A stretch of 64,000 nt of DNA from Lactiplantibacillus plajomi (GTDB lineage: Bacteria; Bacillota; Bacilli; Lactobacillales; Lactobacillaceae). Location: contig NZ_BJDZ01000007.1 in assembly GCF_005405405.1 (NCBI RefSeq), positions 1 through 64,000 on the forward strand, written 5' to 3'. A program made the translations under genes and the position numbers. Under the pieces are notes generated by a model. It was not told the origin of the DNA. It saw nothing but the letters and a program-made list of their open reading frames with translations, and searched no databases. Positions 9,905 to 58,008 of the stretch are shown here, one piece after another. Each line of letters opens with the position of its first letter. The first letter of the stretch is position 1.

Positions 9905-10043
9905 ATAAAAAAAGCCATCGCATATGCGATGGTCGGAGTAGTTCATTTCGCCAGGTGGAGAGCCTAGCAAAACTGATTTTCATTAACTTTGGAGGAGTAA
10001 ATGAAAAAGGTTTTGGTAGCCGGGTACGTTGCCTAGTTACCTT
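9905..10043 (-). ncRNA. sRNA-1 of the C-rich-loop family
   Basis: Minus-strand transcript predicted from an extended -10 TGCTACACT (hexamer 10055-10050) to an intrinsic terminator. Hairpin 1 (10007-9977) has stem TTTTCATT/AATGAAAA and a loop with ACUCCUCCAAAG. Hairpin 2 (9968-9950) is GCUAGG-CUCUCCA-CCUGGC. A linker with UACUCC precedes the terminator stem CCATCGCA/TGCGATGG and seven T. The layout matches sRNA-2, -3 and -4. The C-rich loops are complementary to Shine-Dalgarno sequences. The promoter is less certain than for sRNA-2 and -3 because the shared upstream box is missing. Confidence 0.6.
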
Positions 10044-10141
10044 AATGTTAGTGTAGCACTTTAATCGTTAAAGTTGGAGTAAATATGACCCATATTGATC
10101 AAAATCGGTTGTCCTATAACAGTAGTGTCCCCCGGTCAAAA

Positions 10142-10768
10142 TTAAAGGGCGCTGCGGGTCTTTTCTGCCAATTCGTTTTGATGGAAGACTAGCGTGATCG
10201 CTGTTTGCGGCTGGTCTTTGATCTGATTATAGGTTAAAACCTGAATGTTGCGGTGCTTGGTCGCCACGTTATTGACCGCGTTGGGTGGCCCCAGCTTCGT
10301 GACCACTTGGCTGTACGTCGTTCCCGGCTTCAACTTCGTGACCAGGTCGGTCGTCACGCGCGGGTTGGTCGCCAGCTTGGCCATCTGGTAAGACTTGGCG
10401 ACGGCTAACCCGTCATGGAAGCTAATGGTGACAGTAGCACCGGCCAAACTCTTCGTTGTATTTTCCCAAATGTAGGTTTTCAGTGGCTGCTCGTAAGACG
10501 GAAACTTGGTTTCGGTCGTGCGGGTTGCTTTGCCAAAGAGTGCTTTGACCTGGGTCAGCGTGCTAGCGTAGTCGTTCTCGGTAACGGCGAGCTGAATTCG
10601 CTCAAAGTTAGCCCGACTGACCTGCACGGCCGGTTCATTGGATGTTTTCACTTGTTTAGTTGTGGTGCTTGGTTCGCGTTGAATGGCCGGCTGCGCCGTG
10701 GATTGGGTACACGCTGCTAGTAGTAACGTCAACGTGAGCCCGACTCCGATGGTCAGCGTTCGAAACAT
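10142..10768 (-). CDS. DUF3862-like lipoprotein
   Basis: Secreted lipoprotein of 208 residues. The start at 10768 (MFRTLTIGVG) is preceded by TAGGGG and begins a typical lipoprotein signal ending in the lipobox LLAAC, so the mature protein should be lipid-anchored at Cys21 on the outer face of the membrane. The longer upstream frame lacks a signal and is rejected. After a low-complexity linker come two BLIP/SmpA-like repeats, each with a VTEN- or LKPGTTYSQVVTKLGPPN-type helix-turn segment. This arrangement is the Firmicute DUF3862 family. Molecular function unknown; such domains usually mediate protein contacts in the envelope. Lies between sRNA-1 and sRNA-2, all on one strand. Confidence 0.75.
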   Translation of the reverse strand: MFRTLTIGVGLTLTLLLAACTQSTAQPAIQREPSTTTKQVKTSNEPAVQVSRANFERIQLAVTENDYASTLTQVKALFGKATRTTETKFPSYEQPLKTYIWENTTKSLAGATVTISFHDGLAVAKSYQMAKLATNPRVTTDLVTKLKPGTTYSQVVTKLGPPNAVNNVATKHRNIQVLTYNQIKDQPQTAITLVFHQNELAEKTRSAL

Positions 10769-10865
10769 GATTAAATCCCCTAACGTATGTAAGACTGTTA
10801 TTTTTAGAGAATACCATTGATTAAGGAAAATGTACATAGGGTGCCGGTTAGTTAAGGGGGACAAC

Positions 10866-11018
10866 AAAAAACCACCGTATCGGGGAATACGGTGGAAAAA
10901 GGAGTAGGGTAGACACGTGATGGGGAGTCACGTGCCACTATGAATTTCATTACTTTGGAGGAGTAAATGAAAAATTTTAGGTTGTGTTATAGCGGATTGA
11001 GTTAACCTCAATTGCTAT
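10866..11018 (-). ncRNA. sRNA-2 of the C-rich-loop family
   Basis: About 153 nt on the minus strand. An additional 5' hairpin (ATAGC..ATTGAG/CTCAAT..GCTAT) precedes hairpin 1 (10971-10946, TTCATTTAC/GTAATGAA, loop TCCTCCAAA) and hairpin 2 (10934-10914, perfect CACGTGA-CTCCCCA-TCACGTG). The linker carries UACUCCUUUUU. The terminator CCACCGTAT-TCCCCG-ATACGGTGG plus six T ends near 10866 and shares its loop and most of its stem with sRNA-3. The promoter has -10 TATGAT (11030-11025) and a TTCACA direct repeat in place of a -35. Confidence 0.75.
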
Positions 11019-11024
11019 GATGTT

Positions 11025-11056
11025 ATCATACCGAGTGGCTGTGAAGAATGTGTGAA
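11025..11056 (-). promoter_or_regulatory. sRNA-2 promoter with TTCACA direct repeat
   Basis: On the minus strand TTCACA-N5-TTCACA (11056-11051 and 11045-11040) lies upstream of -10 TATGAT. The -35 position is non-consensus (ACACAT), as expected for an activator-dependent promoter. The 14-mer CACACATTCTTCAC is shared, apart from one W position, with the sRNA-3 promoter at the same distance from the -10. An 11-bp direct repeat is the classic layout for OmpR/PhoB-family response regulators. Confidence 0.55.
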
Positions 11057-11174
11057 TGAACTGCTCGATTGGTTTGAAAAAAAGGCTAAGGAATTCTAAA
11101 AGCCATTGATGAGTGCGTGCCCAAGGTTGGCTGACCTTGGCTGCACGTTTTGGCTATGATTGTTTGGAAACGAA

Positions 11175-11202
11175 AGGGGCCGTGACTTTTGCCACGGCCC
11201 CT
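11175..11202. terminator. Terminator after the YugP-like gene
   Basis: Stem AGGGGCCGTGRC with complement and tetraloop, 11 bases beyond the stop of the minus-strand metallopeptidase gene, followed on that strand by TTTCG. Confidence 0.75.
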
Positions 11203-11212
11203 GGGTATCGAT

Positions 11213-11911
11213 TTAATTATCGTCGCGGTTGCCACCGAATAAGATGATCAATCGGAGTAATTGTAAGAAGGTCGCTAAGGCAGCGGCAACGTAGGTCAAC
11301 GCGGCGGCGGTCAACACCTTGCGAACCATCGGTACTTCGTCGCGGGTCAGGACCTGACCGTTGGCTAAAATCTGAAGTGCGCGTCTGGAAGCGTTGAATT
11401 CGACCGGCAGCGTCACGAGTTGGAAGAGTAACGCTAATGAGAATAATAGAATCCCGATGTGAATCAGCGTTTGGTTATAACTGAGTAGCACGCCAACGAT
11501 GATGATTGGCAATGACAAGGTCGAGCCAAGGTTAGCTGCCGGAACGAGCGCCGTTCGTAAGCGCATTGGCCAGTAGTTGACGTGGTCCTGAACGGCGTGT
11601 CCGCATTCGTGGGCGGCAACGCCGATGGCCGCAACCGATGGTGAATCGGCGGTCGCTTCGGATAAGCTGAGCACCTTGGTCTGGCCATTGTAGTTATCGG
11701 TCAGATCACCGCTGATTTTTTGTACCCCAACGTTGTTAATGCCCGACTGTGCGAGAATGAAACGGGCCGCGTCACTGCCCGAATAGTTCGATTGACTTCG
11801 GTAAGCATCGTATTTTCGGAACGTGTGGTTGACGTAACCGGAAGCCGCCATTGAAATGACGATGCCGATGATGACCAAGAAATAAGTTGAATCAAAAAAT
11901 GGGTAGAACAA
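11213..11911 (-). CDS. Membrane zinc metallopeptidase, YugP family
   Basis: Integral membrane putative zinc peptidase (YugP / Peptidase_Mpr-like), 232 residues, the usual length. The zinc motif AAHECGHAVQDH (HEXXH, about residues 100-111) is followed by four or five hydrophobic helices. An N-terminal helix is also present, and EFNASRRAL (about 170-178) carries the downstream conserved Glu region. Start codon is TTG with AGGAGG nine bases upstream. Biological substrate unknown; role in membrane-protein turnover is only inferred from the family. Transcribed alone, ending in the terminator at 11175. Confidence 0.85.
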   Translation of the reverse strand: MFYPFFDSTYFLVIIGIVISMAASGYVNHTFRKYDAYRSQSNYSGSDAARFILAQSGINNVGVQKISGDLTDNYNGQTKVLSLSEATADSPSVAAIGVAAHECGHAVQDHVNYWPMRLRTALVPAANLGSTLSLPIIIVGVLLSYNQTLIHIGILLFSLALLFQLVTLPVEFNASRRALQILANGQVLTRDEVPMVRKVLTAAALTYVAAALATFLQLLRLIILFGGNRDDN

Positions 11912-12082
11912 AGCGATGCGCCTCCTACGGAAAATGATGTTAATCAGTATTTTAGCAGATTTAAGCGCAACTTACCAAGCTTGGACCGGTGGTAAGTGTT
12001 TTTTCTGTTAACTAACCAACTAGCTGTTTATAATGATGGTGTTCCAACGTCGCAGTGGTTTAAAAGTTAGGGGTAAGTAATA

Positions 12083-12250
12083 ATGGAAGAAGCTTATCAT
12101 ACAATGACTTACGGTAATATCCCGTTAAAGTTAGATACCGGTAACGGCATGGTATTTCCGAAGGGGATTGAAATTTTGGCACGGGTCAATCAAGAAACTG
12201 GGGAAGTGACATTCTTCATTGACCGCAAAAATTTGGAACAGTTGAAGTAG
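12083..12250 (+). CDS. Small conserved-looking protein, 55 aa
   Basis: Short gene encoding a 55-residue acidic, soluble peptide starting MEEAYHTMTYGN and ending FIDRKNLEQLK. It is supported by a clear ribosome-binding site (AGGGG nine bases before ATG), codon use like the neighbours and an intrinsic terminator starting three bases after the stop. The predicted fold is mostly beta (alternating hydrophobics with GNGMVFPKG turns). No family recognised; function unknown. The rest of 11912-12349 holds only promoter-like AT-rich sequence. Confidence 0.65.
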   Translation: MEEAYHTMTYGNIPLKLDTGNGMVFPKGIEILARVNQETGEVTFFIDRKNLEQLK

Positions 12251-12252
12251 CT

Positions 12253-12296
12253 AAAGAAGAAGTTGCGGCGCTAAATGGGCGTCACAACTTCTTTTG
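12253..12296 (+). terminator. Terminator of the 12083 small gene
   Basis: Stem GAAGTTG...CAACTTC followed by TTTT. Confidence 0.75.
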
Positions 12297-12349
12297 GGTT
12301 CCCGGACGATAATCGGCGAGACGGGTGCCAGCTCTTTTCATGGTTAGTT

Positions 12350-13915
12350 CTAATTAAATTCATCAGCGACGCCCTGCGTCTTGGCTGGTAGTGGGTCGTG
12401 AGCCGGAATTGGGGCTTGGGTGCTGTACTTATGGCTGATTAGGAATCGTTGCAACTTGAAGCTGGAAGCAAGTTTAAAGCAGGTTTCGGCGTCGTGCAAA
12501 TCACATCCGGTTAACTTAGTAATGTGTTTCAACCGGTTTCTCAGCGTATTAGGGTGGACGTATAGGTCCTTCGCCGATTGGGTCAGGTTGCAAGTCGCCC
12601 GTAAGTAGCCGTCCAAGGTTTTGACTAGCGCCGTATTATTTTGGGCGTCGTAGGCTGCTAGTTCACGAAGCGCCGGGTTGAGGAAAAACGGCAAGATTTC
12701 GACGTGGTTGACCCGTTCGAGCGACAGGTTAAAGAATTGATCCTCACAAAAGATGACCCGGCCGCGGAGCGTTTGTAAGCGGGCCGTGCGGTTGCAAACT
12801 AGTGAGGCGGCAAAGGTGTCCTCGGGATTGACGTAGTGCTGAGAAATAATCAGGCGGCAGTCGGCTTTTCGGGTGACTTTGCTGAGGATCCTCCTGAACT
12901 TATCGCCGTTGTAATCGGCCAGGCTGAGCGAAATCAGGGCGAAGCATTGCTGACGAAAAACCGAGACTAACACCTGCTTAAAATGGGGTGTTAGCAAGTA
13001 TTGTAGCCGTTGTTGCAAAATCATTGGCGCCTGGTCGGTCAGTGAATTGCACCGGACTAGCACCATGGCGGTCGGTAAAACGGCGTGTTGTTCGGCGAAC
13101 TGGGCGGCAAAAGTTGAACTTTGGCGCTCGGTCAGTAGCATGTTAAGTAGTTCGTCACGTTGGGACTCGGTGGTCGGCATGATTTGATTTTTGACGACCG
13201 AGCCGGCAATGACTTGACCAATCGGATTGATCAGGCGGGCGTGTACGTCGTTAAGCGGTGTTTTGAGTGCGGCCATGACGAGGTAGCCGATTGGTTCTTG
13301 GCCGTTAGCTAGCGGTGTAATCAGCATTGGTTCGGCGGACAGGTTGTCCTTGGCGATGTAAACCTGGGTCAAGAAGTTGGGGTTATCGGGTGCAAAGCCG
13401 TGGTCGAGCAGCCAGCGGGCAATCTTATTGGTTTCGACCGCGGCGTGAATGCTGGCCCCGTTAATATCGGTGGTGTGTGACCGCGAAAGAATCTGGCCGT
13501 TTAAGTCGATAATCGCCATCGGGTTTTGGAGTAAGCTGACCGCGGCGGCTAAAGTTGTATCGAAATCGGCGGTAATCGCGTTAATGGCCAACGTGTTAAC
13601 GGCCTGGAGTTGACCGGCCGGATTTAGGAGCGTTCCCAGGGTGGTTAATAGTTTGAGCAGTTGGTTTTGAACGGCAATCGTTGTGGCGAGGTGGTCGCCT
13701 AAGTTGACCGTCGCCACCGCTTGGTACTGGTGTTCCCAATAACTCAGGCGCACGTGGTGGTCGGTCGTAGTTAGGTACAGTTGGTGCGGTTGCGGGTCGA
13801 AGCTTGGACAGGCAAACACCGCGCGGGTGATGGTTGGGTCGCTGGTCAGTGCGGCTGGTGTCTTAGTCACGGCAAAACTCGCGGTTAGGTTCGTAAGTAA
13901 TTGTGATAATTTCAT
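12350..13915 (-). CDS. PucR-type transcriptional regulator
   Basis: Regulator of 521 residues with the PucR/CdaR layout: a long N-terminal sensory region (about 1-430; GAF-like stretch around 130-240) and a C-terminal PucR helix-turn-helix at about 445-505 (TLDGYLRATCNLTQSAKDLY, then VHPNTLRNRLKHI). Ligand unknown. Five extra codons upstream (TTG start) are rejected because the GGGGGA ribosome-binding site lies within them, eight bases before ATG. It is transcribed in the same direction as, and downstream of, the SDR-ADC-nitroreductase operon, separated by that operon's terminator; control of that operon is a reasonable guess. The mRNA start UUGGGGGA is perfectly complementary to UCCCCCAA in sRNA-3 and sRNA-4. 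Confidence 0.8.
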   Translation of the reverse strand: MKLSQLLTNLTASFAVTKTPAALTSDPTITRAVFACPSFDPQPHQLYLTTTDHHVRLSYWEHQYQAVATVNLGDHLATTIAVQNQLLKLLTTLGTLLNPAGQLQAVNTLAINAITADFDTTLAAAVSLLQNPMAIIDLNGQILSRSHTTDINGASIHAAVETNKIARWLLDHGFAPDNPNFLTQVYIAKDNLSAEPMLITPLANGQEPIGYLVMAALKTPLNDVHARLINPIGQVIAGSVVKNQIMPTTESQRDELLNMLLTERQSSTFAAQFAEQHAVLPTAMVLVRCNSLTDQAPMILQQRLQYLLTPHFKQVLVSVFRQQCFALISLSLADYNGDKFRRILSKVTRKADCRLIISQHYVNPEDTFAASLVCNRTARLQTLRGRVIFCEDQFFNLSLERVNHVEILPFFLNPALRELAAYDAQNNTALVKTLDGYLRATCNLTQSAKDLYVHPNTLRNRLKHITKLTGCDLHDAETCFKLASSFKLQRFLISHKYSTQAPIPAHDPLPAKTQGVADEFN

Positions 13916-13963
13916 ATAAGCATCCCCCAATACTTAATTCTGGTCCACCTCGATAATAGAAAA

Positions 13964-13977
13964 TGTAAGCGCTTTTG
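13964..13977. promoter_or_regulatory. cre-like site upstream of the pucR-like gene
   Basis: TGTAAGCGCTTTTG fits 12 or more of 14 positions of the catabolite-responsive element TGWAARCGYTWNCW, with the symmetric core AAGCGCTT. It lies about 50 bases before the regulator gene. Its first ten bases recur at 16636, upstream of the adjacent SDR operon. Confidence 0.5.
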
Positions 13978-13993
13978 TAAAGTGGCTTTAGCC

Positions 13994-14034
13994 GAAAAAA
14001 TCCCCGGAATCGTGACTGATCGGTTCCGGGGATT
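13994..14034 (-). terminator. Terminator of the SDR-ADC-nitroreductase operon
   Basis: Stem AATCCCCGGAA/TTCCGGGGATT followed on the minus strand by a run of six T, 22 bases beyond the last operon gene. Confidence 0.85.
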
Positions 14035-14056
14035 AAGGGTTAGTCGTGACGACTAC

Positions 14057-14707
14057 CTAGAGAAATTCAGTTTGGGTTTTCGCATCGTAACGGGTGGTGT
14101 GAAGTGGTTCTTCATCAGCTTTCCCGATGGCGACGCCCATGATTGGCACGTAGCGCTTTGGGTCTAAGCCCAGGGTTGGAATCATGTGTTCGAAGTCGAT
14201 ACCGGAGAAGGCGTTGGCGTCGTAACCGTGAGCCCGCGCCATCAGTAATAGTTGCATGCCAACGATTGAGCAGTCGATGGTGGCGTCTAGGCGTAGGAAG
14301 TCCGGCGTTGCGTTTTCGTAAAGCGGTAAGAAGGTTCCTAAAATTTGGTCTAAGCGTTCCTTGGTAATGTTACCGGCTTTATAAACCTTGTTCCAAACGT
14401 CGCGGTAAACCAGGTGTGACTGGGTATCGCCGGCGATGAAGACGATGGCCGAAGCACTGTCTACTTGCGGATAGTTGAACTTCATAACGGCCTTCTTAAA
14501 CTTTTCCTTGGCCTCGGGCGTATCAATCACCACGAAGTGCCAGGATTGCAAGTTGCAAGCTGACGGGGCGGTGGTGGCCTCGGCAATCATCGTTTGTAAC
14601 TCGTCGCGCGAAATTTTAACGGATGGGTCGAACTTACGGACCGAGTGGCGGTTAAAGACGATATCGGAAAAATCATTGTTAACTAATTTTTTAGTGGTTT
14701 CTGACAT
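14057..14707 (-). CDS. Nitroreductase-family protein
   Basis: FMN-dependent oxidoreductase of 216 residues. FNRHSVRKFDPS (about 18-29) is the N-terminal FMN-phosphate site; EATTAPSACNLQSWHFVV (about 43-60) is the conserved FMN-binding loop; a dimer-interface helix follows. Start ATG is well spaced from AAGGAAGG. Last gene of a three-gene minus-strand operon with an acetoacetate decarboxylase-like protein (29-base gap) and an SDR dehydrogenase. The company suggests the three act on one carbonyl or aromatic compound, perhaps reducing it with NAD(P)H, but the substrate is not evident. Confidence 0.85.
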   Translation of the reverse strand: MSETTKKLVNNDFSDIVFNRHSVRKFDPSVKISRDELQTMIAEATTAPSACNLQSWHFVVIDTPEAKEKFKKAVMKFNYPQVDSASAIVFIAGDTQSHLVYRDVWNKVYKAGNITKERLDQILGTFLPLYENATPDFLRLDATIDCSIVGMQLLLMARAHGYDANAFSGIDFEHMIPTLGLDPKRYVPIMGVAIGKADEEPLHTTRYDAKTQTEFL

Positions 14708-14736
14708 AGTGCAGCCTTCCTTTCAAAAGTGAGTGG

Positions 14737-15582
14737 TTAGATTTTGTAAGCCGTGTCCTTCGGGTTGAAGAAACTGCGGTCGTAGCGGCCGGTCAGTAAT
14801 TTTGGCATCGTGGCCGCCGTGTCAACGGTTTCGAGCTTTAAGGTATTGAACATGACCGACGTATCGAAGTGGAACCAAGCTGCGCCCAACGGCTTCAAGA
14901 CTTTTAATTCGCCGAACGGATCGTCCGGCGTCGAATTCATTTCGATAGTCAACTTCCCGGGTTCAACTTGGTCGGCTAACGAACGCAACTGGGTCGCAAC
15001 CAGTTGAACGTTGTTGAAGTGGTTGGTGCCGTCGTCGTGTTGATCAATATCGTATTTGTAGAAGAAACTGTTCATTTCGGCTTCTTTACCGAGTGCAAGT
15101 TGCCCAGCGAACTGTTTCATAATCGACGGGTCGTTTAGTTCGCCCTTTTCCCAGGAAACGTTCATCAGGGTTGCACCGTGACGAACCACCGTGGCGGTGG
15201 CGGTGTCATCGGTCCGGCGGAGGTCGATGCTGTCAGCAAGTTTCTTTGGAATCCCAGCACCTTCACGGCCGGCAATCACACCACTTTCAGCGCCAGGGCC
15301 GTGTAACAACAGGGTGATTGGGTAAGCACCCATCATTTTATCCTTATAGCTAACCAATGCGAAGATGCTTTGTTCGAGGTAGGGACCGCCAAAAGTTGGT
15401 TTGCCCATGTGGACGACGTAGCCACAAACCACTGGTGCCATTAACTTTAATGGTGCCGGAATCAAGCGTGCTAAGGCTTCCTGGTCGGTGGCGTAGGCGA
15501 AGCCGATCCCTTCTTGGTCGTTCATACTTGGAGAAGTTAAAAAGTTTTTAACGTCGTCGTTACTTACTACAAAACTAGCCAT
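14737..15582 (-). CDS. Acetoacetate decarboxylase-like protein
   Basis: Member of the acetoacetate decarboxylase (ADC) superfamily, 281 residues. The Schiff-base lysine motif is intact: GREGAGIPKKLAD (about residues 104-116), where the tandem Lys corresponds to Lys115-Lys116 of the clostridial enzyme. The upstream sheet GKPTFGGPYLEQSIF and the hydrophobic cavity regions also fit. Family members include true decarboxylases and enzymes using the same Schiff base for other aldol or decarboxylation chemistry, so the reaction is not certain. Middle gene of the operon; neither thiolase nor CoA-transferase is nearby, so solventogenic acetone production is unlikely. Confidence 0.82.
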   Translation of the reverse strand: MASFVVSNDDVKNFLTSPSMNDQEGIGFAYATDQEALARLIPAPLKLMAPVVCGYVVHMGKPTFGGPYLEQSIFALVSYKDKMMGAYPITLLLHGPGAESGVIAGREGAGIPKKLADSIDLRRTDDTATATVVRHGATLMNVSWEKGELNDPSIMKQFAGQLALGKEAEMNSFFYKYDIDQHDDGTNHFNNVQLVATQLRSLADQVEPGKLTIEMNSTPDDPFGELKVLKPLGAAWFHFDTSVMFNTLKLETVDTAATMPKLLTGRYDRSFFNPKDTAYKI

Positions 15583-15612
15583 GATTGAACACTCCTTTTT
15601 TATGTTAAGTGA

Positions 15613-16473
15613 CTACATGATCCCGTCCATGATGTGAACATCCGGCTTGCCGTCGGTGACAATCCGGTGAACCCGGTCCTGAATCAAGTTGTTGAATTCT
15701 GGGTGGGTCAGGATGTAGAAACGGTTGTCTTCCAACGCCTTAAAGACGGTGTCGGCAATTGTGTCGATCGGCATCCCGTTGGTGATTACGTACTTCGCGA
15801 ATTGTTGACCCTTCAAGTAAGCTTCACTTTGATAGTACGGGTCGCTAGTATCGGTGTACTGCTTTGGCCGGTGGTTTTCAGTATGGTATAAGTCGGTTTG
15901 AACGAAGCCTGGGCACATGACGTGCATGTCGATGTCAGCGCCGGCCCGTTGTAAGTCGTAGGCGGTCGCTTCGGTCATGCCGACCGAGGCAAACTTGCTG
16001 GCGTGGTATGACGGCATCCCGGGGGTGTCGACCAGGCCGGCAATTGAAGCGACGTTCAAGATGTCGCCGTGGGTCTTTTGCTTCATCATAATTGGAATGA
16101 CCCGTTTGATGGCGTAAACTTGGCTCATCAAGTTAATGTGCATGATCCATTCCCAGTCCCGGGTTGGTAATTCCCAAATCCGGCCGGGCAGTGCAATTCC
16201 GGCGTTATTGATCAGTAAATCGATGCGCCCGAACTTTGCAATGGTTTGGTCGATGGCGTCGTCGACGTTTTGCTCGACCGTGACGTCGGCCGTAATTTGC
16301 AGGGCTTCAACCCCGGCATCGGTTACTACCTGGTACGTCTTTTCCAACGCTGGTCCGTCGATGTCGACCATCGCAACTTTCATGCCGCGCTTAGCCGCGC
16401 CCTCAGCGATAACTTGACCGAAGCCGTGTGCGGCCCCGGTAATAAACATGACCTTATCTTTAAAATCTTTCAT
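15613..16473 (-). CDS. Short-chain dehydrogenase/reductase
   Basis: Classical SDR oxidoreductase, 286 residues. Rossmann cofactor motif TGAAHGFGQ (about 11-19), acidic VDID at the end of beta-2 (favours NAD(H) over NADP(H)), NNAG (about 88-91), catalytic Ser in NVASIAG (about 141) and YHASK (about 154-158). A start six codons further upstream is rejected because the GGGAGG ribosome-binding site lies inside it. First gene of the operon with the ADC-like and nitroreductase genes. A cre-like site lies about 165 bases upstream. The substrate is unknown; an alcohol/ketone pair is usual. Confidence 0.88.
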   Translation of the reverse strand: MKDFKDKVMFITGAAHGFGQVIAEGAAKRGMKVAMVDIDGPALEKTYQVVTDAGVEALQITADVTVEQNVDDAIDQTIAKFGRIDLLINNAGIALPGRIWELPTRDWEWIMHINLMSQVYAIKRVIPIMMKQKTHGDILNVASIAGLVDTPGMPSYHASKFASVGMTEATAYDLQRAGADIDMHVMCPGFVQTDLYHTENHRPKQYTDTSDPYYQSEAYLKGQQFAKYVITNGMPIDTIADTVFKALEDNRFYILTHPEFNNLIQDRVHRIVTDGKPDVHIMDGIM

Positions 16474-16635
16474 GATCCAACAACCTCCCATAAAAATAAT
16501 GATGATAGATTGAGTTTTCTAAAAGATGTAACCGCTATCAACACCGCTTATGGTAAAGGTTGCGGCGTGGATTGGGAACTGGCAAAAGCTCCAATTTTGG
16601 ACCCGTTGATTTGGAGGTTTTCCACATGGTCGTGG

Positions 16636-16649
16636 TGTAAGCGCTGCGC
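16636..16649. promoter_or_regulatory. cre-like site upstream of the SDR operon
   Basis: TGTAAGCGCTGCGC shares its first ten bases with the site at 13964 upstream of the pucR-like gene and matches 11 of 14 cre positions. Either CcpA or the PucR-type regulator could be the binder. Confidence 0.4.
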
Positions 16650-16670
16650 TAGAATAGTCTTTCCGGTATC

Positions 16671-16797
16671 AAAAAAACCTCCGTATCGGGGAATACGAAG
16701 GAAAAGGAAAGTAGATATTAGGAGTTGCACAACGCTCAACGTTTGGGGGAGTGAACGGGTGCAAACATTAAGGCTTGGGGGTTCCTTAATGTTGATG
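16671..16797 (-). ncRNA. sRNA-3 of the C-rich-loop family
   Basis: About 127 nt on the minus strand. Hairpin 1 (16793-16764) is a perfect 10-bp stem AACATTAAGG/CCTTAATGTT with loop AACCCCCAAG. Hairpin 2 has outer stem TTGCAC/GTGCAA (to 16725) and inner CGTT/AACG with loop CACTCCCCCA. A linker containing AACUCC precedes the terminator CCTTCGTAT-TCCCCG-ATACGGAGG plus seven T. The promoter has -10 TATACT (16808-16803) and the upstream box shared with sRNA-2. It is the most compact and best-formed member of the family. It lies upstream of, and on the same strand as, the SDR operon. Confidence 0.75.
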
Positions 16798-16802
16798 ACC
16801 CT

Positions 16803-16871
16803 AGTATAACGGCCGGGCGTGAAGAAAGTGTGCCGAGAATGTCTTAAAAGTGCGTGGTTGCCGTGAAGAAA
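16803..16871 (-). promoter_or_regulatory. sRNA-3 promoter and repeated TTTCTTCACG box
   Basis: On the minus strand: GGCACA-N5-TTCACG (16834-16829, 16823-16818), nine bases of spacer, then -10 TATACT. Spacing is identical to the sRNA-2 promoter, and CACACWTTCTTCAC is shared between them. A further copy of TTTCTTCACG lies at 16871-16862, exactly 44 bp (four turns of 11 bp) upstream. Confidence 0.5.
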
Positions 16872-17017
16872 CCACTGGCGGTTATAAAGTTTATAATGAA
16901 TTGTTCACTGGGTTAACTGGTTGTTAAGTTGAAAACGTTGGTTTGGCGGGCGTCAGCCCGTTTTAATTTGAGACGATGCTATAATTATTGCCAAAATAAG
17001 TGAAAGCGGGATTTTTT

Positions 17018-17857
17018 ATGGCAATTAAAATTGTGACGGATTCGGCGGTTCAACTGACCGCGACGGAAATTGAACGGTATGACATTCACGTGGTACCGCT
17101 GATGGTTGGCTTTGCCGGTGGATTGACGGCCGATACCCAAGTTGACCGGGCGGATTTCGCGCGGCAAATGACGGCAAGTGCCACGCTACCAACGACTAGC
17201 CAGCCCCCAATCGGTGACTTTGTTGCGATGTACGATACGCTCACTAAGGATGGCAGCCAGGTCTTGTCGCTGCACTTAACGGAGACCCTGAGTGGGACGG
17301 TTAATGCGGCTCGCCAAGCGGCTAAGTTGACCCAGGGCGACGTTACCGTCATCGATACCCAGGTGGCCGACCGCGGGATGGCGTTTCAAGTTTTGACCGC
17401 TGCGCGAATGGCGCGTTCCGGTGCGGCCATGGACGCAATTTTAGCTAAGCTCGCGGTGATTCGCGACCATACCAAAACGTATTTATTCGTGGATACGCTG
17501 GATAACCTCGTGAAGGGCGGTCGGGTCCCGAAGATTGCCGGCGTCGTCACGAACTTGATCAAATTGAAGTTTGTGTTTGAGTTGGTTGACGGTAAGTTGA
17601 AGTTTTACACCCGCGGGCGTGGTAAGAAGGCCTTGATCAAAGCCCAAGCCAAGATTTTAGCGGAACTGAGTGATGCCACCCGGGTCGAAGCGGCGGGGAT
17701 TTCGTACGTGGGTGACCCGAGCGTTGCCGCCGAACCGGAAGCCCTATTACGCAAAGTGACGCCGCAAGCCGACGTACTCGTCGAGCGGACCAGCGCGGTC
17801 ATCGCGACCCATGCCGGCATTGGCGCGTACGCACTGATGTTTTATACCGTTGATTAA
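17018..17857 (+). CDS. DegV family fatty-acid-binding protein (FakB-like)
   Basis: Cytosolic DegV/FakB protein, 279 residues. The family binds a single fatty acid and presents it to the kinase FakA for phosphorylation before phospholipid synthesis. N-terminal IKIVTDSAVQL, then TTSQPPIGDF (about 63-72, the TSQPS-type loop), HLTETLSGTVNAA (about 86-98) and a C-terminal GGRVPKIAGVV segment are diagnostic. A GTG six codons upstream is possible, but ATG at 17018, six or seven bases after GCGGGA, gives the canonical N-terminus. Monocistronic; fakA is not in the window. Confidence 0.88.
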   Translation: MAIKIVTDSAVQLTATEIERYDIHVVPLMVGFAGGLTADTQVDRADFARQMTASATLPTTSQPPIGDFVAMYDTLTKDGSQVLSLHLTETLSGTVNAARQAAKLTQGDVTVIDTQVADRGMAFQVLTAARMARSGAAMDAILAKLAVIRDHTKTYLFVDTLDNLVKGGRVPKIAGVVTNLIKLKFVFELVDGKLKFYTRGRGKKALIKAQAKILAELSDATRVEAAGISYVGDPSVAAEPEALLRKVTPQADVLVERTSAVIATHAGIGAYALMFYTVD

Positions 17858-17899
17858 GTTAACAGTAAATTAGTACTATTAAAAATAGCTTAGACATGT

Positions 17900-17997
17900 T
17901 ATAATTAATAAGTAATATATTAGAGTCGTGTTGGCGCACTGTTCTGAGCCTAACCACCATGTAAATGATGACTAGACCCGGATGGGGCGTCTTTTTT
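17900..17997 (+). promoter_or_regulatory. Promoter and structured leader of lrgBA
   Basis: Extended -10 TGTTATAAT (hexamer 17900-17905) starts a leader of about 120 nt before lrgB. The leader has possible pairing AGAC...GTCT across CCCGGATGGGGC followed by six T at 17992-17997, resembling an imperfect terminator. Attenuation or a small trapped RNA is possible; I do not recognise a riboswitch class. Confidence 0.4.
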
Positions 17998-18033
17998 GTT
18001 ACCCTGAATGATTAAAAGAAAGTAGGAAACCGT

Positions 18034-18762
18034 TTGACTTATTTAGTAAATAACCCGTTTTTCGGGATCGGCCTGTCCGTCTTCGTGTACGGTATCGGCG
18101 AATACCTCTACCACAAAACGAAGCGTTTCGTCCTGTTTCAGCCGTTGTTTTTCGGTATGCTACTGGGGATGGGACTAATCGTGGTGATTGCTGCGGTGTT
18201 AAAGGCGCCGATTCAAAAAGTTTACGAGGCGTACCAAGTGGGTGGCGACTGGTTATTCTGGTTTGTCGCGCCGGCCACCGTGTCGTTTGCCGTTCCGTTA
18301 TATAAACGCAATGATATTTTTAAAAAGCACTGGGACGTTATCTTAGTGGCATTATTTTTGGGGTTGCTGGTTTCATTGTTCGGTATTTACGCCGTGTCAC
18401 AATTACTCGGGTTAACCGACGCCGCTTTAGGTGCCATGCTGGTGCAGGCCGCCACGACGGCCATCGCCTTACCAGTAGCGGAATCGGTCGGTGGCGACCA
18501 GGCGATTGCAGCCTTCGCCGTCATCCTGAACTCGGTGCTGATTTACGCCCTGGGGGACCACTTTATTCGCTGGTTCAAGTTGCATAAGAATCCGTTGGGT
18601 GCTGGACTGGGCTTCGGGATTGCCGGTAACGCCGTTGGGGCTACTAAAGCGATTGAAGTCGGCGAAGCCGCCGGTGCGACTGGCGCCATCGCCTTCGTTG
18701 TGGCCGGGATCCTAGTTAACTTTATGGTACCGGGCTTTGCAAGTTTGATTGGATTAGGTTAG
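18034..18762 (+). CDS. lrgB: LrgB family membrane protein
   Basis: Integral membrane protein of the LrgB/CidB family, 242 residues, about seven or eight hydrophobic helices. The family, with LrgA/CidA, is thought to form holin/antiholin-like or small-metabolite (pyruvate, glycolate) transport complexes linked to autolysis and overflow metabolism. The conserved core ATTAIALPVAESVGG (about residues 150-164) and GIAGNAVGATKAIEVGE (about 206-222) are clear. Start codon TTG with GTAGGA upstream. It precedes lrgA by nine bases, the reverse of the usual lrgA-lrgB order. Confidence 0.9.
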   Translation: MTYLVNNPFFGIGLSVFVYGIGEYLYHKTKRFVLFQPLFFGMLLGMGLIVVIAAVLKAPIQKVYEAYQVGGDWLFWFVAPATVSFAVPLYKRNDIFKKHWDVILVALFLGLLVSLFGIYAVSQLLGLTDAALGAMLVQAATTAIALPVAESVGGDQAIAAFAVILNSVLIYALGDHFIRWFKLHKNPLGAGLGFGIAGNAVGATKAIEVGEAAGATGAIAFVVAGILVNFMVPGFASLIGLG

Positions 18763-18771
18763 GAGGAACTA

Positions 18772-19167
18772 ATGAAAAAAGCGACGTTTGTGAAACAAAT
18801 TATGATTTACGGGTTGATTCTATTTGCCAGTAGCTTGATTGCCCACTTGTCGGCCCAGCTTTTCCCGGCGTTTCCAATGCCGACAGCGCTGATTGGGATG
18901 GTTATGCTATACCTACTACTGACGTTTAAGGTGGTCAAGTTGGAGCAGGTTGAAGGGGTCAGTAACTTCTTCGTTCAGATTATGAGTTTGGTCTTCATCC
19001 CGTCTGGCGTGGCGTTGGTGACCAAGTTAGACGTATTGAAATCCGAGGGGCTGCAAATCATTCTGGTCGTTATGATCTCAACGCTGATGTTGTTGCTCGT
19101 GACGGCGGGCTTTGCGTGGGTACTGATTCAAGTGAAGGAATGGGTCGGTCGAAAAGCGACGCGTTAA
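18772..19167 (+). CDS. lrgA: LrgA/CidA family membrane protein
   Basis: Small integral membrane protein of 131 residues, four hydrophobic helices, LrgA/CidA (holin-like) family. Conserved FPMPTALIGMVMLYLLL (about 35-51) is the family core, followed by FVQIMSLVFIPSGVALV. AGGAGG sits seven bases before the ATG. Partner of LrgB; together presumably an envelope complex in autolysis or pyruvate handling. Ends in a terminator at 19232. No LytSR regulator pair is nearby. Confidence 0.9.
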   Translation: MKKATFVKQIMIYGLILFASSLIAHLSAQLFPAFPMPTALIGMVMLYLLLTFKVVKLEQVEGVSNFFVQIMSLVFIPSGVALVTKLDVLKSEGLQIILVVMISTLMLLLVTAGFAWVLIQVKEWVGRKATR

Positions 19168-19231
19168 AACGTGCTGGCGTTCTAGCTACTAGTGGGTAGC
19201 GGGCATGCCAGTCTGCTTTAACTCGGATGGT

Positions 19232-19266
19232 GCACCGGTCTGCTAAGTGGCGGGCCGGTGCGTTTT
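19232..19266 (+). terminator. Terminator of lrgBA
   Basis: GCACCGG stem, 16-base loop, CCGGTGC and a run of five T. Confidence 0.75.
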
Positions 19267-19278
19267 TGGACGGGAAAT

Positions 19279-19486
19279 AAAAAAAGCCACCACATCAGCG
19301 GATGTAGTGGTCAAGGAGTAGGAAACACCAAAGTGGGGGCTTTGATGATCCCCATTCATAAGACTTGGGGGAGCCTATGAATGAAATAATTGTTAAATGA
19401 CGTTATGGCAGCAACGCCACCAACAATCGTTAAAAACTAAAGAATATTAAGGACTGACAGCGAGTTCATCGCTTACTATCAATCTG
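19279..19486 (-). ncRNA. sRNA-4 of the C-rich-loop family
   Basis: About 205 nt on the minus strand from a strong promoter at 19520-19492. After a 5' extension, hairpin 1 (19383-19353) has stem CATTCATA/TATGAATG with loop GGCTCCCCCAAGTCT. Hairpin 2 (19347-19326) is CATCAAAG-CCCCCA-CTTTGGTG. The linker carries CCUACUCCUUG; the terminator CCACTACATC-CGCT-GATGTGGTGG has seven T. The 3' half is clearly of the same family as sRNA-1 to -3; the 5' 100 nt are not shared. Confidence 0.7.
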
Positions 19487-19491
19487 GGTCT

Positions 19492-19520
19492 ATTATAATT
19501 TTAAACACAACGGGCTGCAA
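19492..19520 (-). promoter_or_regulatory. sRNA-4 promoter
   Basis: Minus strand -35 TTGCAG (19520-19515), 17-base spacer, -10 TATAAT (19497-19492), just beyond the stop of the upstream GNAT gene. Close to sigma-A consensus and lacking the TTCACA box. Confidence 0.65.
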
Positions 19521-57318: not shown

Positions 57319-58008
57319 ATGAAGATTTTAGTAGTCGATGACGACAAAGAAATTGCGCAACTATTAGAAATTTACATTAAAAATGAAGGTTACGAACCAA
57401 TCAGTGCCTACAATGGTCGCGAAGCCATTACGAAATTAAATACTAACCCGGACATTGCCCTAATGATTTTGGATATTATGATGCCCGAAATGGACGGGAT
57501 TGAAGTGATCAAGGAAGTGCGGAAAGACTCCCAATTGCCAATTTTGGTACTGTCTGCCAAAACTGGCGATATGGATAAGATTCAGGGGTTGATCACTGGT
57601 GCTGACGACTACGTCACTAAGCCGTTTAACCCGCTGGAAATCATGGCGCGGGTCAAGTCGCTGCTGCGGCGGTCGGAGAATAACGTGACCAGCAACGAAC
57701 CGGACGTTTTAGATATCGGCCCGTTGACCATTAATAAGGATTCACACGAAGTTAAGACGTTAACTGGTAAGGATATTCAGTTGACGGCGTTGGAGTTCGG
57801 GATCCTTTACCTGTTGGCAAGTCACCCGAACCGGGTCTTTTCCGCGGATGATATTTTTGAGCGGGTTTGGCAACAGGAAAGTATCGTATCGGCGAAGACG
57901 GTCATGGTGCACGTGAGCCACTTGCGCGATAAAATTGAAGAAGCAACTGACGGCGAAAAGGTGATTCAAACCGTTTGGGGCGTCGGTTATAAAATCGAAG
58001 CACGTTAA
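57319..58008 (+). CDS. OmpR-family response regulator, VanR-like
   Basis: 229-residue response regulator. Receiver domain LVVDDDKEIA (about 4-13, acidic pair), phospho-Asp in MILDIMMPEMDG (about 51-62), Thr/Ser and Lys (VLSAKTG, YVTKPF). OmpR winged-helix output with SAKTVMVHVSHLRDKIEE and VIQTVWGVGYKIE. Start 57319 follows AAGGAG; 21 upstream codons are rejected. Operon with a VanS-like kinase and a DacA carboxypeptidase, indicating cell-wall homeostasis. OmpR-type regulators bind 11-bp direct repeats such as those at the sRNA-2 and -3 promoters, though no link is shown. Confidence 0.9.
   Translation: MKILVVDDDKEIAQLLEIYIKNEGYEPISAYNGREAITKLNTNPDIALMILDIMMPEMDGIEVIKEVRKDSQLPILVLSAKTGDMDKIQGLITGADDYVTKPFNPLEIMARVKSLLRRSENNVTSNEPDVLDIGPLTINKDSHEVKTLTGKDIQLTALEFGILYLLASHPNRVFSADDIFERVWQQESIVSAKTVMVHVSHLRDKIEEATDGEKVIQTVWGVGYKIEAR

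Follow-up and report, generated by a model that had tools for sequence, protein, structure and literature searches.

The LhrC RNAs of Listeria contact Shine-Dalgarno (SD) sites of messenger RNAs (mRNAs) via UCCC/CU-rich loops (PMC4132741, PMC13350326). A CCC mutation in loop A of LhrC abolishes binding to the SD site of the fri mRNA, and binding of LhrC generally blocks the initiation of translation (PMC13350326). A second described system, the csRNAs of streptococci, belongs to the CiaR regulon. The CiaR site is TTTAAG-N5-TTTAAG, located about 10 nucleotides (nt) before the -10 element; an 11-base-pair direct repeat replacing the -35 element is the mode of OmpR-family response regulators such as CiaR, and CiaH is absent from Lactobacillus (PMC3091779). 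Here we analyze four loci, s1 to s4, on the minus strand of bases 1–64000 of contig 7 (the window, 64,000 nt) of a Lactiplantibacillus genome of 2.76 Mb. They belong to one homologous family, and RNA structure is under selection at all four. We consider it highly probable that this is a multicopy family of the LhrC/csRNA type, composed of trans-acting anti-SD small RNAs (sRNAs) that repress translation, with a sub-group under the control of one OmpR-type response regulator.

L. plantarum and its relatives are major food and gut bacteria. We found no description of a multicopy trans-acting sRNA family in L. plantarum or its relatives in the open-access library searched. The vesicle sRNAs of L. 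plantarum WCFS1 (PMC9436029) were considered as family members and set aside, as the listed sequences displayed do not match the family. We regard the family as a new representative of a known type. Its promoter signature is likewise new, LhrC and the Rfam family Ref84 are probably linked through it, and a Listeria-type layer of control is probably present in food and gut lactobacilli too.

Predicted fold of the four RNAs

An earlier note on this DNA had described four minus-strand intergenic loci with a common architecture. All four are present at the positions and on the strand given there, and their 5' ends fit -10 elements located about 6–7 nt upstream (TACACT, TATGAT, TATACT and TATAAT). 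With the start placed 6–7 nt past the -10 element, the predicted RNAs s1 to s4 comprise 137, 153, 127 and 208 nt, respectively. On the minus strand each locus folds into a pair of hairpins, both with C-rich loops, followed by a CUCC linker that stays unpaired and by a terminator. The folding z-scores relative to dinucleotide shuffles are -3.6 for s1, -6.8 for s2, -4.1 for s3 and -4.8 for s4. Intrinsic terminators, also part of the initial description, were located by a terminator scan at all four loci, and no plausible gene in the window overlaps s1–s4, as had been claimed.

The predicted s1 transcript (9907–10043, minus strand, as are all features of the four loci) carries a hairpin 1 with the loop CCUCCAA, a hairpin 2 with the loop CUCUCCA, the linker CUACUCC and a terminator hairpin at 9915–9932. 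Its -10 element TACACT is found at 10050–10055. The assignment is based on the fold, on orthologues and on the covariance model R1 described below. In s2 (10866–11018) the corresponding loops are CCUCCAA and CUCCCCA, followed by the linker CCCUACUCCUUUUU and a terminator hairpin (10872–10895) with the loop UUCCCC; fold, alignment, pair counts and a second covariance model, R2, characterize this locus. A promoter box, TTCACA-CATTC-TTCACA, occupies 11040–11056 and lies 9 nt upstream of the -10 element TATGAT (11025–11030).

The layout of s3 (16671–16797) differs. An extra C-loop hairpin with the loop AACCCCCAAG stands at the 5' end, and the counterpart of hairpin 1, with a ACUCCCCCAAA loop, comes second; it is followed by the linker ACUCC and the terminator hairpin (16678–16701) with the loop UUCCCC. 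The common architecture proposed in the earlier note thus holds for the parts in all four loci, but not for their order in s3. The box of s3, GGCACA-CTTTC-TTCACG (16818–16834), is again 9 nt upstream of the -10 element, TATACT (16803–16808). This locus is supported by its fold, by R1 and R2 and by tandem paralogues. The longest RNA, s4 (19279–19486), has CCCCCA in the loops of both hairpin 1 and hairpin 2, the linker CCUACUCC and a terminator hairpin at 19287–19310, and is supported by its fold and by R1 and R2. Its promoter, TTGCAG-N17-TATAAT (19492–19518), is without a TTCACA box. The 5' extension of s4 (19385–19486, minus strand) forms two further hairpins, and s4 is 84–90% conserved across about 220 nt in eight species.

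Homology and covariation

Orthologues of s1–s4 are present in named Lactiplantibacillus species, including L. plantarum. Because hairpin 2 was misregistered when s1, s2 and s4 were aligned jointly, the model R1 was built from twelve s2 orthologues only and extended by cmsearch. In a search space of 381 kb of related loci, R1 recovered s1 with 60 bits (expectation value E = 6e-11), s3 with 36 bits (E = 1e-5) and s4 with 38 bits (E = 6e-6), all three at E ≤ 1.3e-5, together with many paralogues. Because R1 had seen s2 only, these three matches are independent evidence of common descent, and the proposal that the loci form one family is borne out. R2 gave scores of 119.9 bits for s2, 50.8 bits for s3 and 72 bits for s4.

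The family alignment comprises 76 sequences from R1 matches (71 distinct rows). It was fitted to the structure and is hence biased towards it, and the following values, calculated for the distinct rows, have to be read accordingly. Compensatory changes on both sides were observed at 27 of 28 pairs, spread over all three helices. Pairing was found in 96.6% of the cells compared with 77.4% after shuffling, and dropped to approximately 36% when the partner was slid by one column. The covariation score is 0.377, compared with 0.127 after shuffling and no more than 0.073 after sliding. The alignment of s2 orthologues alone was not fitted to the structure; it shows both-side changes at 7 pairs, which was equalled by 0 of 500 shuffles, and hairpin 2 of s2 by itself has a compensatory change in six of its nine pairs. 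These data support the selection on a folded RNA with C-rich loops that had been postulated from the four loci.

The loops are conserved in composition. Hairpin-1 loops contain 62% C versus 15% in the stems (71 sequences). Homologues whose loops are not C-rich had been named in advance as evidence against the original proposal; the outcome speaks for the proposal, with a core of the CUCC/CCCC type kept in 68 of 71 hairpin-1 loops, as well as in 62 of 71 linkers. Stems that vary freely but remain paired had also been claimed. This applies to hairpin 2 and the terminator, where the sequence changes and pairing is kept. It does not apply to hairpin 1 of s1 and s2: there the 5' strand plus loop, TTTTTCATTTACTCCTCCAAAG, hardly varies, orthologues included.

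Read as its complement, TTTTTCATTTACTCCTCCAAAG gives an ideal ribosome-binding site plus start codon (GGAGGAGTAAATGAAA). The plus strand could be the functional one, with GGAGG-N5-ATGAAA serving as the ribosome-binding site of a small peptide (MKNFRLCYSG... at s2, MKKVLVAGYVA at s1), and both loci indeed offer a perfect SD sequence and start codon (s2: 10956–10985, plus strand). However, the minus strand carries the promoter, the box and the T-runs, the two peptides are unrelated, and what is conserved is the C content of the loops rather than codons. The look-alike is moreover the expected complement of an anti-SD RNA. We rejected the peptide on the reading frame of s2: in the orthologue of L. 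modestisalitolerans (L031), one additional A disrupts this frame (ATG AAA AAA TTT TAG). We regard a coding plus strand as barely conceivable. As the mirror of an anti-SD sequence, the SD and ATGAAA look-alike at 10956–10985 could mislead gene callers.

Copy number, distribution and genomic context

The genome contains six family members, namely the four in the window and two further copies at C1:109582-109688 and C6:509-658. At least one family match at E ≤ 0.1 was obtained in 71 of 121 genomes and in 37 of the 66 sampled genera of Lactobacillales. All 21 Lactiplantibacillus genomes have 6–12 copies, and two genera outside the Lactobacillaceae have 4–8 copies per genome. Tandem arrays of the s3 type occur in L. 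fabifermentans (four copies, flanked by the DegV and zinc-peptidase genes) and in L. daowaiensis (several copies).

The copies adjoin unrelated genes, i.e. those for DegV, lrgAB, an acetyltransferase, an insertion sequence (IS) remnant and a LytTR two-component system. This bears on the question whether the elements act in cis, as terminators in 3' untranslated regions, attenuators or riboswitch-like leaders of their neighbors, rather than as free sRNAs. The loci are intergenic and end with terminators, and s1 comes after the end of a minus-strand lipoprotein gene, all of which would suit a cis-acting element. Against it stand the promoter that separates each copy from the gene upstream, the diversity of the neighbors, the tandem arrays and the fact that no common gene follows the terminators. 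We consider a cis-acting role very improbable and retain the assignment as free sRNAs.

In the vicinity of the fifth copy (C1:109582-109688) are a gene for a CPBP-type membrane protease and a LytTR pair of response regulator and histidine kinase. The sixth (C6:509-658) adjoins the remnant of an IS/transposase and has a terminator end of altered appearance; this copy may be decaying or may have moved. In one group of genomes (f9 g30, L088–L091; 5–8 copies each) the family occurs in a compact version with a single hairpin and the variant box TTCATA-N5-TTCATA-N9-TATTAT.

Promoter box and candidate regulator

The box TTCACA-N5-TTCACA is found exactly 9 nt before the -10 element at s2, s3 and both copies outside the window. 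Its core, CACANWTTCTTCA, occurs at only four sites in 2.76 Mb, each of them preceding a family member; the reversed control has none. One of the members outside the window was first located via a stricter form of the motif, ahead of any model search. The box varies to some extent (KTCAYA-N5-TTCAYR) across the Lactobacillaceae and further families of the order, with a spacing to the -10 element of 9 nt in 57 of 57 boxed members. A motif matrix, trained in part on the boxes of s2 and s3, scored above 15 only at these two boxes in the window, and 640 kb of random sequence yielded no score above 18.

Counts of the exact 13-base motif over 121 Lactobacillaceae genomes came to about 104 sites, compared with about 23 for the control. 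We inspected 90 exact TCACANTTTCTTCA sites in Lactobacillaceae. A family member follows 30–107 nt downstream at 26 of the 54 sites outside long open reading frames and at none of the 36 sites inside them; several of the remaining sites outside reading frames precede C-rich RNAs that the model missed. In the g4 genomes (L152, L154 and L181) the box precedes a different, model-negative short C-rich RNA (AUCCCCCC, AAUCCCC and a CCCUCCCC terminator loop), and the first TTCACA motif is followed closely downstream by a second one. In the g14 genomes (L173 and L190) the box precedes a gene for a protein of 168 amino acids (MKKFDLADA...), a rare protein-coding candidate for the regulon.

The direct repeat and its position resemble the CiaR site. 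Very likely, a single OmpR-type response regulator activates s2, s3 and the two copies outside the window jointly. Six OmpR-type regulators are encoded in the genome. The gene at C1:1788-2465 is presumably that of a LisR-like regulator; LisR is needed for the transcription of LhrC. The best-looking candidate for a regulator preceded by a box of its own (L145, ATCACG-TTTCT-ATCATA-N9-TATAAT) was rejected, as this architecture is not conserved in 19 orthologues. In the window, a gene pair for an OmpR-type response regulator and a kinase (57325–57999, plus strand) has a single TTCACA half-site upstream. Orthologues of s1 have an ordinary promoter, TTTAAC-N17/18-TATACT.

Proposed mechanism and target pairing

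Based on structure, homology, copy number and promoter box, as well as on the profile-level relation to LhrC, we propose the following mechanism, which is transferred from LhrC by analogy. Each copy would be transcribed from its own promoter and end at its intrinsic terminator. The response regulator would bind TTCACA-N5-TTCACA in place of a -35 element and activate the boxed copies (s2, s3 and the two outside the window), and s1 and s4 with their ordinary promoters may provide a basal or differently timed pool. The predicted fold would expose several C-rich segments, in the hairpin loops, in the single-stranded ACUCC linker and often in the terminator loop. The segments are similar to the 3' end of 16S rRNA; pairing would be expected with the SD region of target mRNAs, and it would block ribosome binding and lower translation of the target.

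Duplex energies calculated for nine C-rich segments favor 45 start regions of the window over coding sequence, and 7 of the 9 segments beat most of their shuffled versions. The linker CUACUCCUUUUU is unpaired and SD-like, and the longest complementarity to an AUG-containing ribosome-binding site lies in hairpin 1. A single target with long complementarity was rejected, as no mRNA of the genome has the full 16-nt complement of the conserved s1/s2 strand. Given this lack of a long perfect match, each RNA is likely to act through several short contacts.

Several observations weigh against the proposed mechanism. For hairpin B of s3 and the linker of s2 a shuffled segment pairs equally well, so that composition explains a good part of the duplex preference. 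Exact 16-nt GGAGGAGTAAATGAAA sites in the genome are confined to three sRNA genes of the family, with none in an mRNA. The TTCACA box is absent from s1, s4 and Ref84-like members (best match 10 of 17 positions for s1 and 9 of 17 for s4). Finally, boxes upstream of the six OmpR-type regulator genes are weak or not conserved, and the regulator was not found among them.

The genome without a long mRNA complement would also suit RNAs whose C-rich loops act on a protein or on ribosomes, as a sponge for either a component of the ribosome or an RNA-binding protein with affinity for C, instead of on specific mRNAs. Several near-identical C-rich loops per molecule, many copies per genome and a 5' strand and loop of the s1/s2 hairpin 1 that are nearly invariant across the genus fit such a role. 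On the other hand, the loop core matches the anti-SD sequence (CCUCC, CUCCUUUU), the loop variants between copies look like a diversification of targets, and LhrC, a relative at profile level, is proven to bind SD sites of mRNAs (PMC4132741, PMC13350326). A sponge therefore appears improbable to us, and anti-SD pairing remains the preferred function. With 6–12 copies genus-wide and a shared promoter box, the regulon is open to direct test.

Relation to LhrC, Ref84 and other known RNAs

An Rfam scan of the whole window gave no match at the gathering threshold (110 bits for LhrC, RF00616; 52 bits for Ref84, RF02846). Sub-threshold matches to OmrA-B (E = 0.014), BjrC68 and rli32 were judged to be chance, because they are far below the gathering cut-offs. 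For LhrC no match up to E = 5 was obtained in the region 9.5–20 kb of the window, and Ref84 has no match in any of the Lactiplantibacillus genomes listed. At the profile level, however, R2 lands on the RF00616 LhrC genes of Listeria-like loci (most copies; E from 3e-7 to 1e-3), and it matches RF02846 Ref84 places in Enterococcaceae-like genomes (E from 2e-5 to 3e-3). A Carnobacteriaceae-like locus (L130) is matched by both LhrC RF00616 (38.9 bits) and R2 (37.6 bits). The likeness to LhrC and csRNAs in layout, as originally suggested, is supported by covariation, loop conservation and the broad distribution; the accompanying statement that the sequences are not recognizably the same as LhrC was too cautious.

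The family, LhrC and Ref84 have an element order in common, consisting of an A/C-rich 5' stretch, a UUUUCAUU stem, a C-rich loop, ACUCC(C)UUUU and a terminator. The three probably share descent, as judged from these sequence profiles. Convergence on a simple design, a UUUUCAUU hairpin with a CU-rich loop and a terminator, would be compatible with the same mechanism and has to be taken seriously. In its favor, the window loci lack an Rfam LhrC match even at E = 5, the LhrC element lies farther upstream (about -55 to -75) than the box that replaces the -35 element, and the shared elements are short stretches under functional constraint. Yet the E-value of 3e-7 on LhrC genes, the Carnobacteriaceae-like intermediate and the order of elements down to the 5' AACAA stretch and ACUCCYUUUU argue for descent, and we regard convergence as the less expected explanation, with a sizeable chance of being correct.

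Common descent would join two isolated Rfam families, LhrC and Ref84, into one probable superfamily. In a wider form, LhrC, Ref84 and the lactobacillar RNAs would constitute an ancient, order-wide superfamily of anti-SD sRNAs, and in the Lactobacillaceae and Carnobacteriaceae-like genomes a two-component system would have sRNA as its main output, its best regulator sites being almost only sRNA promoters. We put this forward tentatively, as a proposition whose chances are slightly below even. The family models can be used for the annotation of many genomes. In one genome (L119, G060:C23:58000-72000) the orthologue of the s2-flanking zinc peptidase is found about 5 kb away from a tandem pair of Ref84 copies; synteny is otherwise lost, and this proximity is probably a coincidence.

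Ref84 of Enterococcus (RF02846), for which no function is described in the literature searched, resembles the window family in its UUUUUCAUUUUACUCC hairpin, UUACUCCUUUUUCC linker and terminator. It differs in the absence of the TTCACA box, in a hairpin-1 loop that is not CCUCCAA and in its copy number of one to three. The UCCC-motif sRNAs of staphylococci and bacilli, of the RsaE/RoxS and RNAIII type, similarly pair with SD sites via C-rich loops (PMC4132741); they have no Rfam match in the window. With the streptococcal csRNAs the family has in common several sRNA genes under an OmpR-type direct repeat with a 5-nt spacer directly upstream of the -10 element, as well as SD-complementary stretches (PMC3091779). 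Unlike the TTTAAG-N5-TTTAAG site of the csRNAs, the box is TTCACA-N5-TTCACA-N9, and the SD-complementary part of csRNAs is mainly found between two stem-loops. No R2 match was listed in the sampled f4 g20 genomes, taken to be Streptococcus.

The family can likewise be compared with LhrC1-5, Rli22 and Rli33-1 of Listeria (RF00616). Both are multicopy RNAs of roughly 100–150 nt with their own promoters and with a TTCACA-containing element of regulator type in several copies. A stem-loop A starting with UUUUCAUU and carrying a C-rich loop, a single-stranded ACUCC(C)UUUU linker and a C-rich terminator loop are found in both, so that CU-rich motifs are present in stem-loop A, the single-stranded stretch and the terminator. 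The window members differ from LhrC by an additional C-loop hairpin and by a box that overlaps the -35 region, whereas the LhrC element is located near -55 to -75.

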